Below, one piece after another: positions 11,606-32,316 of a stretch of DNA of 36,243 bases. Where the stretch lies: the NCBI GenBank assembly GCA_023659895.1, contig JAGXOL010000008.1, forward strand, positions 1-36,243. The letters are read 5' to 3'. Made by a program: the position numbers and the translations under genes. Under the pieces are notes generated by a model, which was not told the origin of the DNA, did no database searches, and saw nothing but the letters and a program-made list of their open reading frames with translations. Every line of letters starts with the position of its first letter. The stretch's first letter is position 1. The stretch is from Candidatus Aenigmarchaeota archaeon LH_S7 (lineage in GTDB: Archaea; Aenigmatarchaeota; Aenigmatarchaeia; QMZS01).

Positions 11606-11980
11606 ATGAAACGATTTTACCTAAAAACCTATGGTTGCTCCGCAAACAAGAATGATTCAGAGATAATTGCAGGTATTTTATCTAAATCTGGTATGATTAA
11701 AATTAAGAACCCTAAATTTGCGGATTTAATAATCATAAATACCTGTATTGTCAAGAAACCCACAGAAAATAAAATCTTACATAGGATAAAAAAATTAAAA
11801 GAGAATTTTCCTAGAAAAAAATTCTTAATAGCTGGTTGTATGCCAGAAGCTTACCCAGAACTAATCAAAGATCACTTTCCTGAAATGAGCATGATTTCCA
11901 CGAACAAGATTAAGGATATAAGCAAGGTATTGACACTCTCCACGACTAAAATCGGTAGCTTTCTTGGGACTTATCTGTAA
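11606..11980 (+). pseudogene. Truncated tRNA-t6A methylthiotransferase (MtaB/CDKAL1-like), N-terminal UPF0004 domain only
   Basis: FYLKTYGCSANKNDSEIIAGIL..ADLIIINTCIVKKPTENKIL; radical SAM and TRAM domains absent; last ~16 codons read into an element scar (11930-11980). Confidence 0.8.
11930..11980 (-). mobile_element. LE/RE fusion scar of the same mini-element family
   Basis: Minus strand: acagataagtcccaagaaagctac (LE of 27349-27702 element) fused to gattttagtcgtggagagtgtca (its RE). Confidence 0.75.
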
Positions 11981-22298: not shown

Positions 22299-22502
22299 AA
22301 TTAATTAATCTTGACTGAATTTCAATTATTTAATCAATTTTTGAGCTCCAATAATTCTTTTTTTGAGTAATTAATAAAAACTAATCTACTTCCCTATTTT
22401 AACTTAAAATATCCAAGAAGTCTACTTCCAAAATCTTAGCCAATAATACAGATTTTGGTGGTAGATGAATTGGCATACTAAAGGTTTTTTGTAAATATAT
22501 AT

Positions 22503-23711
22503 ATGGTTGTGAAAAATTATAAATACAGAATTTATCCAACAGGAAAACAAAAAATAAGATTAGAAAAACAATTTGAGATTTGTAAAAACTTACATAATGA
22601 CTTATTGGAAATATCCAAAGAAACTTACACATGTAGTGGAAAGTCTGTAACAAGTAGAAAAGATTTGTATCAAGTTACCAATATTCTAAAAGAACAAAAT
22701 GGTTATAAAGGACATTCTCAGGTTCTACAGAATGTTGCAGATAAGCTAAGCAAGTCTTATAAAGCATTTTATCAGAGAATAAAAGAAAAACAGAAAGGCA
22801 AGAAAGTCAAAGTTGGCTATCCAAGATTCAAGAAGAGAATAAACAGTATAACCTATCCGCAGAATAATAGTTGTTTCAAATTCAAAAATCAGAGAAGACT
22901 TCATATAACTCAAATAGGTTCTGTTCCTATTGAGTTGCACAGGATACCAAAAGGAACTCCAAAAACCCTTACAATTAAGAAAACACTAAGTAACAAATGG
23001 TTTGTTTCCTTTAGTTGTGAGATAGAAAACAAACCAGTTAAACACAAATATCCTGAAAACAAAACTGGTATAGATTTAGGATTGGAAAACTTTGCTACTC
23101 TGTCGGACGGAACTGTTATAGAAAATCCAAGATTTCTAAATAAAACAGAAAAGAAACTCAAAAGAGAGCATAGGAGATTAAGTAAAAAGAAGAAAAGGTC
23201 TATTAATAGGAGTAAACAAAGAGTGAAATTAGCAAGATCTTATGAAACCTTAACTAATCAGAGATTAGATTTTCTACATAAATTAAGTTACCACCTTACA
23301 CAACAATATGATTTCATAGCCATAGAAAATTTGGGTGTATCAAATATGGTTAAGAATCATTATTTGGCAAAATCAATATCTGACGCAAGTTGGTCTGTTT
23401 TTACAGGAATGCTCACTTACAAGGCTTCAAGTGCTGGAGGTAAGTTAGTAGAAATAGACAGATTTTACCCATCTTCCCAAATATGTTCTGATTGTGGAAA
23501 TAAACAAGATATGCCACTATCAAAGAGAATATATAAATGTGAAAAATGTGGTGCAAAAATACCAAGAGATAAGAACTCTGCAATCAACATATTAATGGAA
23601 GGAATAAAAGAAAATACGGCTGGGCGAGTCGGAATTCACGCCTGTGGAGATTTGACCTCTACTGATCAGTCAGCAAGTCGAGTCGTGGAAGCAGGAACTA
23701 TATGTAACTAG
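22503..23711 (+). CDS. tnpB: TnpB RNA-guided nuclease (RuvC-like, zinc ribbon)
   Basis: GIDLGLENFATLSDGT (RuvC-I Asp), FIAIENLGVSNM (RuvC-II Glu), CSDCGNK..YKCEKCGAKIPRDKNSAINI (zinc ribbon plus RuvC-III Asp). Confidence 0.95.
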   Translation: MVVKNYKYRIYPTGKQKIRLEKQFEICKNLHNDLLEISKETYTCSGKSVTSRKDLYQVTNILKEQNGYKGHSQVLQNVADKLSKSYKAFYQRIKEKQKGKKVKVGYPRFKKRINSITYPQNNSCFKFKNQRRLHITQIGSVPIELHRIPKGTPKTLTIKKTLSNKWFVSFSCEIENKPVKHKYPENKTGIDLGLENFATLSDGTVIENPRFLNKTEKKLKREHRRLSKKKKRSINRSKQRVKLARSYETLTNQRLDFLHKLSYHLTQQYDFIAIENLGVSNMVKNHYLAKSISDASWSVFTGMLTYKASSAGGKLVEIDRFYPSSQICSDCGNKQDMPLSKRIYKCEKCGAKIPRDKNSAINILMEGIKENTAGRVGIHACGDLTSTDQSASRVVEAGTICN

Positions 23712-23783
23712 GTCTCACAACCATTACTAGTTGCTGGAAGCCACTTCCAAAAATCAATTTGGTGGTGGAGGATGTCACACATT
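23690..23783 (+). ncRNA. Putative right-end (omega/re) RNA scaffold region of the tnpB element
   Basis: Stems AACTAG(23706-23711)/CTAGTT(23727-23732), GGAAG(23736-23740)/CTTCC(23744-23748), CCAAA..TTTGG, next to tnpB 3' end; second copy has compensatory change. Start of RNA not determinable. Confidence 0.5.
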
Positions 23784-27190: not shown

Positions 27191-27923
27191 ATGCTGAAGG
27201 AAATAATAAAGAAAGAAGTGGATGAAATTTTAGAGAGAACATTTTATGTTAACTTCTATAAAATAGAAGAACTAGCAGAAAGATATGATTTTGAGAAAGT
27301 TGCAACTTGCAGAAAACCAGAAGGAGAAACAGGACATTCTTTTTCATTTGACACTCTCCACGACTAAATCAGGAGATTCTGAGATCGCACTCTGAACCAC
27401 AAAGCCTTTCGGCTGACTTCTTTATGAACTCTGCCTCAGTTCTGGGTTGTGCCAAAACAACCCCTAGTTTAGACATATAGCCTAAACCTCGTTGGTCTTT
27501 TATTGTATAAGCACCTTACCTCTTATTTGGTTGTTGCCAACGGTTTTAACAGGTGTAGTGTTCTGAAGTTTTAACCTTTCTCCAGCACAGCTATAGAGAA
27601 AGAACTCCATAACTATATACAGAAAACTTTAAATACCCTTCTTTCCAGCCCAATTCATCTACCCTCACTAAAGTCTGTAGCTTTCTTGGGACTTTATCTG
27701 TAATGCAGTAGTCTATTCTAAAAACAAAGGGGAAGAAGCTATTGTTTTGTGTGATAAATTAGGGGCTTTATATAAAAATGATAAAATATCTATAAATGAT
27801 ATCAACTTAGGGGAATCTTGTCCTCACTCTGAAGAAGTATCTAAAAACTTAAAAGAGTTTTTTCGATTGGATTATAAAAAGATAAGGGATTCAGAACAAC
27901 TTAAAGAATATTTAGAAAGATAG
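27191..27923 (+). pseudogene. ORF of unknown function split by a mini-element
   Basis: 5' part MLKEIIKKEVDEILERTFYVNFYKIEELAERYDFEKVATCRKPEGETGHSFSF; after the element an open frame NKGEEAIVLCDKLGALYKNDKISINDINLGESCPHSEEVSKNLKEFFRLDYKKIRDSEQLKEYLER*. Confidence 0.6.
27349..27702 (-). mobile_element. tnpB-less IS605-type mini-element (PATE/MITE-like), about 354 bp
   Basis: Minus strand LE acagataaagtcccaagaaagctacagactttagtgagggtagatgaattgg and RE ctcctgatttagtcgtggagagtgtca; no transposase or full tnpB inside. Confidence 0.75.
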
Positions 27924-31286: not shown

Positions 31287-31476
31287 TTTGATTCAAATAA
31301 GTATTTATTCTAGCAATTGTCCTCCTAATCTCTCCCAATCTTCCAGGGTTCTTAACAGTTCCTCCAATAGCTGCACTGCTCTTCTCCTTTGCAAGCTCCA
31401 TTCTCAGCTCTTTCACTTTGCTCTCCAACTCTTCCTTTTTCATCTTCTCCATTTCTTTATATTTTAGGATGGACAT
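31279..31476 (-). CDS. rpl29: Ribosomal protein uL29
   Basis: KELRMELAKEKSSAAIGGTVKNPGRLGEIRRTIARINTYLNQ. Confidence 0.93.
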   Translation of the reverse strand: MSILKYKEMEKMKKEELESKVKELRMELAKEKSSAAIGGTVKNPGRLGEIRRTIARINTYLNQNG

Positions 31477-31477
31477 T

Positions 31478-31504
31478 ATTATCTATTTATCTTAAGTTTT
31501 TTAT
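31478..31504. repeat. 27-bp direct repeat copy 1 (promoter-like, upstream of uL29)
   Basis: attatctatttatcttaagttttttat; one mismatch to 31828-31854. Confidence 0.8.
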
Positions 31505-31685: not shown

Positions 31686-31823
31686 TTAAATATTTAAGTT
31701 TATTCTGCTATCTATAACGCAACCTATTCTTTTTTCAACATGTATTCTTCTCTTCTCAATGTTTTCAGAATCACTAGATCTTTTATTATATATTTCCAAA
31801 GCTCTTTCAGGCTCTAAAATCAT
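31686..31823 (-). CDS. Possible small protein, 45 aa
   Basis: Short ORF MILEPERALEIYNKRSSDSENIEKRRIHVEKRIGCVIDSRINLNI directly downstream of repeat copy 2. Confidence 0.4.
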   Translation of the reverse strand: MILEPERALEIYNKRSSDSENIEKRRIHVEKRIGCVIDSRINLNI

Positions 31824-31827
31824 AATA

Positions 31828-31854
31828 ATTATCTATTTATTTTAAGTTTTTTAT
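31828..31854. repeat. 27-bp direct repeat copy 2
   Basis: attatctatttattttaagttttttat; one mismatch to 31478-31504. Confidence 0.8.
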
Positions 31855-32139
31855 TCGTGGAGATGAATTGCCTTATAAATAATTTTCTTTTTAAATATAT
31901 ATGGACATACAGGTCCTGTATTGTCTTCTGGGTATATCTTGGAAGACGGGGCTGCTGACCCTACAATAGTGAAATAAGGCGTCTGAAAAAGGTGACTCAG
32001 CCCTAAACTAAAGCGTGTTAGACCAAAACCTCTGCTATAGTAAGTTTTGTTAGCGACTTTAGAACCTCGCCAGTCTTCTGTATTCAAAACGGTGTTTTGG
32101 TTAAGGAAGCTCCTGAATTTATTCAGGGAGAGGAAGTCA
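31855..32139 (+). mobile_element. tnpB-less IS605-type mini-element / RE-RNA-like remnant
   Basis: LE-like gtggagatgaattgcc..aaatatatatgg (cf. 22465-22505) and RE hairpin CTCCTGAATttATTCAGGgAG followed by aggaagtcac; no tnpB ORF between. Confidence 0.65.
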
Positions 32140-32316
32140 CTTACCTTTACCCTCCTTAGACTTTGCCCTGAACTTGTTGAAACCGCAGTTTCTGCAATAA
32201 ATTTTTCCCTGCTTGATTTTTTGAGGGTGACCTCTCACCTTTCTCTTGCATCTCAGGCACACGAAAACGTTTTCAAATACTCTTTTGAAAACAGCCTCGT
32301 TCATCTTTACTCCCAT
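32137..32316 (-). CDS. rpl40e: Ribosomal protein eL40
   Basis: MGVKMNEAVFKRVFENVFVCLRCKRKVRGHPQKIKQGKIYCRNCGFNKFRAKSKEGKGK, two CxxC motifs; below ORF-track length cut-off. Confidence 0.88.
   Translation of the reverse strand: MGVKMNEAVFKRVFENVFVCLRCKRKVRGHPQKIKQGKIYCRNCGFNKFRAKSKEGKGK

Follow-up and report, generated by a model that had tools for sequence, protein, structure and literature searches.

A tnpB-less element of the IS200/IS605 type was identified at positions 31855-32140 (plus strand, 286 bases) of the window, the 36,243-nucleotide stretch of DNA that was analysed, which represents one entire contig (C55) of a 740-kb Aenigmarchaeota genome that is 85% complete (G000). The favoured reading, to which we assign a probability of about two in three, is that this block is a non-autonomous, PATE-like element carrying a stand-alone TnpB guide RNA, which is driven by a promoter in the left end and depends on TnpA and TnpB2 supplied in trans. 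A preliminary description, made from the letters of the window, had placed a tnpB-less element at 31855-32139, which was borne out with the end correct to one base (32140); it mentioned neither the membership of the element in a repeat family, here designated family A, nor a second tnpB-less element in the window (27348-27692, minus strand). For an uncultured archaeal phylum, these results provide sequence evidence that the guide RNAs of TnpB can be dispersed as mobile genes in their own right, which are here at least equal in number to their tnpB-bearing relatives.

The element is bordered on one side by rpl40e (32137-32316, minus strand), which encodes eL40 and was assigned from its translation and from the gene order S8-eL40-uL29 in relatives; on the other side, uL29 and eIF1 follow further on. 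It is preceded by the motif TTAT (31851-31854, plus strand), the left cleavage site and presumed TAM, which is the reverse complement of A.TAA as present at the stop of eL40. Alignment with other copies and with tnpB2 left ends delimited a truncated left end and a putative A/T-rich promoter (31855-31900, plus strand); the former consists of the 3' arm of the left-end (LE) hairpin (GTGGAGATGAATTG) and the latter includes TTATAAATA at 31873-31881 (plus strand). The resemblance to the left end of a tnpB element that had been pointed out earlier was confirmed, since the left 14-40 nt match tnpB left ends. Intact copies open with TTAT followed by ACTTAACCAAAGGCAAGAAAACTCCCGA-TTTA-TCGTGGAGATGAATTG and have subterminal hairpins at both ends (LE, ACTCCCGAATTTATTCGTGGAG; right end or RE, CTCCTGAATTTATTCAGGGAG), with terminal inverted repeats absent. 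The left end of the window copy, TTAT followed by TCGTGGAG, is that of copies L061 and L067 minus 34 bp between two copies of TTAT, of which one is the target and the other belongs to the loop of the hairpin. This loss explains the missing 5' arm of the LE hairpin, which the preliminary description had noticed. The window copy is probably immobile as a result; lacking this arm, it should no longer excise, and its RNA may still be made.

The predicted RNA body of approximately 240 nt (31901-32140, plus strand) is conserved in the 15 full copies, and its start was placed at the position of the leaderless ATG of tnpB2. It was predicted to form five helices: hairpin H1 (31923-31947, plus strand), hairpin H2 (GGGGCTG...CAGCCC; 31948-32004, plus strand), which recurs in the folds of A, TnpB2, TnpB3 and G083 and has a larger loop than in the tnpB elements, a central H3, H4 with an inner hairpin (32075-32109, plus strand), and the RE hairpin (32110-32130, plus strand). 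The 3' domain (32063-32140, plus strand) comprises H4, which reads CTTCTGTATT-[CAAAAC/GTTTTG]-GTTAAGGAAG, the RE hairpin and the tail AGGAAGTCAC, so that both hairpins previously proposed for the structured right end are present. The presumed guide is the right flank, TTACCTTTACCCTCCTTAGA (32141-32160, plus strand), which is identical to the 3'-end DNA of rpl40e. A plus-strand peptide of 22 codons that starts at the retained ATG is not in the tnpB frame and was judged incidental. RNase P, SRP, tmRNA and other known RNAs were rejected as candidates because no Rfam family reached its gathering threshold, and no tRNA or tmRNA was found in the element.

Family A is a dispersed repeat with 28 distinct right ends, a set that includes some copies located at contig ends, in three Aenigmarchaeota genomes from two genera. 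It was detected in 3 of the 156 genomes of the phylum and, within the GTDB family, is present in G000, G006 and G007 and absent from the eight other genomes. In the genome of the window itself, BLAST revealed six further near-full copies (90-96% identity, E ≤ 1e-100) as well as partial ones; the element core is also present, exactly, in Candidatus Aenigmarchaeota LH_S4 and LH_S6. The recurrence of the element is far beyond chance. Beyond AGGAAGTCAC, or AGGGAGTCAC in a single case, all 28 right junctions diverge completely, with the terminal GTCAC as the same end point in the family A copies and a right flank that is unique to each of the 28, while TTAT precedes every copy that has an intact A-type left end. 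Copy L078 (G000:C11:14214-14496) is a chimera in which the left end is that of family B, the body that of family A and the target TTAC, which indicates that ends have been exchanged by recombination. Mean column identity over the RNA body was 97% among the 15 full copies. Since the core is approximately 96% identical between genera whose ribosomal protein S8 sequences are 75% identical, family A appears to have moved recently. A search of viral contigs with an exact 35-nt pattern returned no family A copy. The view that the block is ordinary diverged intergenic DNA, which had been put forward as a possible refutation, failed when it was examined; it is excluded by the repeat family and by the relatives, in which the eL40-uL29 spacer is 36-52 bp long and the element is absent.

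The left end and putative promoter of family A recur in the tnpB2 elements that G000 carries. Furthermore, nucleotides 31920-31952 (plus strand), which hold hairpin H1, correspond to the 3' codons of tnpB2 (SSGYILEDGA), with 97-100% identity over 31-33 nt, and the guide RNA begins at these retained last tnpB codons. With tnpB mostly deleted, the guide-RNA segment has come to lie directly behind the promoter of tnpB2, a gene that is apparently leaderless. Among the 11 genomes of the family, close relatives of TnpB2 were found only in G000, G006 and G007, which are the genomes that carry A. A Y1 TnpA was sought in the 85% complete G000 and none was found; G006 and G007 each encode one, which in G006 (C22) lies immediately next to tnpB3.

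An evolutionarily conserved fold was indicated by R1, a 77-position covariance model for this 3' domain. Four A variants and a single HgcC-like match from another family went into its construction. This model gave 102 bits in the window, and when the phylum was searched with it, 13 of 156 genomes proved to contain related domains. The one in G083 extends over the 3' end of an intact tnpB, the product of which shares 50% identity with TnpB2, and the helix order of the G083 RNA is the same as that of A. Three matching copies in G098 have no adjacent tnpB. In the 3'-domain alignment, both-side changes were present in 13 of 18 pairs, both-side cells numbered 67 (14 in shuffles), and 95.5% of cells were paired compared to 44-65% with slid partners; the alignment was fitted to R1, which favours structure, a bias that the slid controls limit and do not remove. 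For H1-H3, the support comes entirely from matching folds. The folding energy of the whole A RNA was not unusual (z = -0.32), and there were no compensatory changes inside family A because its copies are too similar; the structural case therefore rests on the distant relatives. Comparison with these relatives identifies the 3' domain of A as a predicted TnpB wRNA-type fold that is conserved across families of the phylum, and supports the earlier suggestion of a stand-alone right-end (TnpB guide) RNA. The three G098 copies (L173, L185 and L192) are stand-alone HgcC-like elements, two of which are located downstream of ftsY- and ftsZ-like genes, and long runs of perfect hairpins, variable in number, are inserted in their RNA bodies.

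These data also bear on a simpler explanation, in which family A is an inert MITE or PATE that spread through recognition of its ends by TnpA in trans, with the internal RNA as a passenger that has no role. The Haloquadratum PATEs are described as non-coding remnants of IS605 elements (PMC3119063). The A copies are so alike that recent amplification suffices to account for their conservation, and the window contains an LE/RE-only scar (11930-11972). However, all copies that were not cut by contig ends or by the LE deletion of the window copy keep the full 240-nt body, which is more than the ends, and the 3'-domain fold has been retained across families of the phylum by compensatory changes, including in the three stand-alone G098 copies. 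We consider the inert explanation to have perhaps one-third of the weight of the guide-RNA reading, and thus to be improbable.

If the guide-RNA reading is correct, removal of most of tnpB would have left the LE promoter to drive the guide RNA (wRNA/reRNA) directly. The RNA would be transcribed from near 31901, run for approximately 240 nt through the five helices to GGAAGTCAC, and continue into approximately 20 nt of flank as the guide. In TnpB systems the guide corresponds in sequence to the unoccupied insertion site, here TTAT followed by TTACCTTTACCC. The element would be mobilised by a Y1 TnpA acting in trans, and TnpB2 or a relative would load the A RNA and cut empty sites that consist of TTAT and the guide sequence, so that the element is copied back. 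TnpB2 is probably the protein that employs the guide RNA in trans. The right end of tnpB2 itself is without H3 and H4 and terminates in GTCAA instead of GTCAC; the A RNA may therefore be unsuited to TnpB2, which leaves the identity of the partner uncertain.

The TnpB2-type proteins contain a Cas12f1-like TNB domain (Pfam); in G000, TnpB2 is encoded at C11:38216-39343. In the clade formed by TnpB2, TnpB3 and the G083 TnpB (L024, L022, L113 and L187), the RuvC-II motif reads VVGDLKG, with Gly at the position of the canonical Glu. The motif xxE-xxTSxxC of these proteins contains a Glu that is possibly the relocated catalytic residue. The absence of the canonical Glu would suit a role in which a TnpB, nuclease-dead or otherwise, uses the A RNA to repress transcription at the guide target in the manner of TldR. 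Each guide is, however, taken from the DNA that flanks the site where that element itself inserted, and the whole clade presumably retains an Asp-Glu-Asp set if the Glu of NERGTSHTC substitutes, as in derived TnpBs. Repression of this kind is accordingly judged to be very unlikely.

At rpl40e, joining of the flanks at TTAT restored the gene with no target duplication. On the minus strand the joined sequence reads ...GGT AAA GGT AA/A TAA AAA ACT (the slash marks the junction); the last residue of eL40 is unchanged (...KGK), the stop is TAA, and the next start codon is approximately 33 nt away. In four of five uninterrupted relatives, TTAT is present at the homologous eL40 stop (AGA TAA). In the window, as the preliminary description stated, the TCA of the terminal GTCAC (32137-32139) is the eL40 stop on the minus strand, so that the TGA stop of rpl40e lies inside the element. 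Read on the minus strand, the right end is GTGAC; it has swapped A.TAA for G.TGA and left the protein unaltered. Since A.TAA is TTAT when read on the opposite strand, and GTGA is supplied by the right end, an element that inserts in this orientation turns xxA.TAA into xxG.TGA, which explains the rpl40e site. Upstream of uL29, the leader located just 5' of the gene (AAAAAACTTAARATAAATAGATAATNATG) is duplicated in the window (31463-31502 and 31813-31852), and two short unknown open reading frames without a Pfam match lie on the minus strand between the leader copies.

The preliminary description had also proposed that the guide is antisense to the eL40 mRNA. As a statement about sequence this holds, the plus-strand right flank being complementary to the 3' end of the mRNA; a regulatory effect on eL40 was unsupported, because the complementarity follows from insertion opposite the gene. 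An exapted antisense RNA that pairs with this 3' end and regulates eL40 would have an archaeal precedent in the transposon-derived RNA-257 of Saccharolobus (PMC3674436). Nevertheless, the flank differs in every copy, which points to insertion rather than to selection at rpl40e as the source of the complementarity, and the 36-52 bp spacer of the relatives leaves no ancestral antisense gene. Little credence is therefore given to this explanation.

Insertion at stop codons was not confined to rpl40e. When genes of at least 60 codons on the opposite strand were considered, such a gene reached the junction in the frame xxA.TAA at 9 of the 28 junctions (copies L060, L065, L070, L079, L081, L082, L083, L084 and L086); in L082 the conversion was from TAA.TAA to TAG.TGA. 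For three of these copies with both flanks, which interrupt the ends of genes for eL40, an FtsY-type GTPase and a 68-aa protein, the joined frame was longer by exactly one codon. At other stop-codon copies the Pfam profiles were complete to the end (SDR, 236/236; PCMT, 205/210; ribosomal S10, 98/98). The expected proportion was approximately 3%, based on 45 convergent xxA.TAA stops and 1429 TTAT sites outside genes in approximately 200 kb of related sequence. The corresponding binomial probability was approximately 1e-7 for 9/28; when the count was restricted to copies with both flanks (3/15), it was 0.01. Both values are approximate owing to crude gene calls, the shared descent of some sites and the inclusion of copies at contig ends. 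Relatives that end in TCAA showed stop-codon insertion in approximately 3 of 19 cases. It is conceivable, and we propose it only tentatively as the less likely case, that family A elements are mobile, consist of nothing but a guide RNA, exploit a resident TnpB as parasites and have become specialists for stop codons; if so, the protein would be left intact and the guide anchored in conserved gene ends. The sites suggest a simple route to harmless insertion, in which target and end sequences jointly rewrite one stop codon as another.

The window contains other elements of the IS605 type. The tnpB1 element (22420-23772, plus strand) encodes a 402-aa TnpB with HTH, OrfB_IS605 and TNB domains, as assigned by Pfam and sequence. 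The second tnpB-less element (27348-27692, minus strand) belongs to family B and, as judged by its shared ends, derives from a tnpB3 element (G000:C56:17156-18256); over 147 bp it is 96% identical to the right end of tnpB3, and the two have a common left end. Its RNA folds unusually well (z = -3.5). A stem that reads GGGTTG/CAACCC in family B and GGGCTG/CAGCCC in tnpB3 represents a compensatory change, and approximately 110 nt between the promoter and the tnpB 3' end are missing from tnpB3. Further family B copies are L031 and L033 (partial). At 11930-11972 (minus strand), the left and right ends of family B are fused with no core; this terminal-only scar is located where a truncated gene of MiaB/MtaB type (11606-11980) has its 3' end. 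Both contig ends (1-55 and 36145-36243) fall inside IS605-type right ends, of the family B/tnpB3 type and the tnpB1 type, respectively, which indicates that the assembly broke at repeats.

The PATEs of Haloquadratum walsbyi are among the closest known systems. They are, like family A, archaeal and transposase-free, with IS605-like near-terminal palindromes, conserved 3' ends and an origin by internal deletion of tnpB elements; terminal-only LE/RE fusions such as that in the window also occur, and HqIRS71 retains part of the tnpB C-terminal coding region, as family A does (PMC3119063). In contrast to the PATEs, which were called non-coding in a paper that is older than the wRNA, the body of family A has a covarying wRNA-type predicted fold and a putative LE promoter; insertion at stop codons was seen in family A, and no such description was met for the PATEs in the available text (PMC3119063). 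The TnpB wRNA/reRNA of IS200/IS605 elements such as ISDra2 (PMC8612924) and the A RNA share the overlap of the tnpB 3' end with the right end and, presumably, the use of the 3' flank as guide, and the upstream TTAT would act as the TAM; A differs from these systems in having no tnpB in cis and a putative promoter of its own in the LE. The RNA-257 paralogues of Saccharolobus solfataricus (PMC3674436) are likewise stand-alone RNAs that originated as the 3' part of a transposase gene and are equipped with their own promoter. They were interpreted as antisense regulators, whereas A is a mobile family with a variable flank.

The most relevant Rfam match, which did not reach threshold, was HgcC (RF00062; 13.9 bits against a gathering cutoff of 50, at 32049-32150), and a search of G000 with the HgcC model at E ≤ 0.001 gave no match. 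Nevertheless, HgcC and A share the order of their parts, with a GGGCUG..CAGCCC hairpin, a C/GUUCC..GGAAG/C helix, and a terminal hairpin with a UUUA loop and GAGGANGUCA tail; A differs in its strongly diverged sequence, in its longer H2 loop and in the extra helix within H4. The sub-threshold HgcC matches in the phylum mostly terminate in a hairpin and GAGGANGTCA, with variable sequence beyond; two are located at the 3' end of tnpA-only elements and one at a tnpB gene, with the rest having no adjacent transposase. In Thermococcus kodakarensis, HgcC1-3 are transcribed from inside transposase genes and HgcC4-5 are unlinked to them (PMC4247193). Among the papers searched, none mentions HgcC together with TnpB. 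An origin of HgcC RNA from transposase genes had thus been reported before. Our inference is that HgcC represents the guide RNA used by the TnpB of IS605 elements in archaea, and the present results support the view that the orphan archaeal HgcC RNAs are TnpB guide RNAs.
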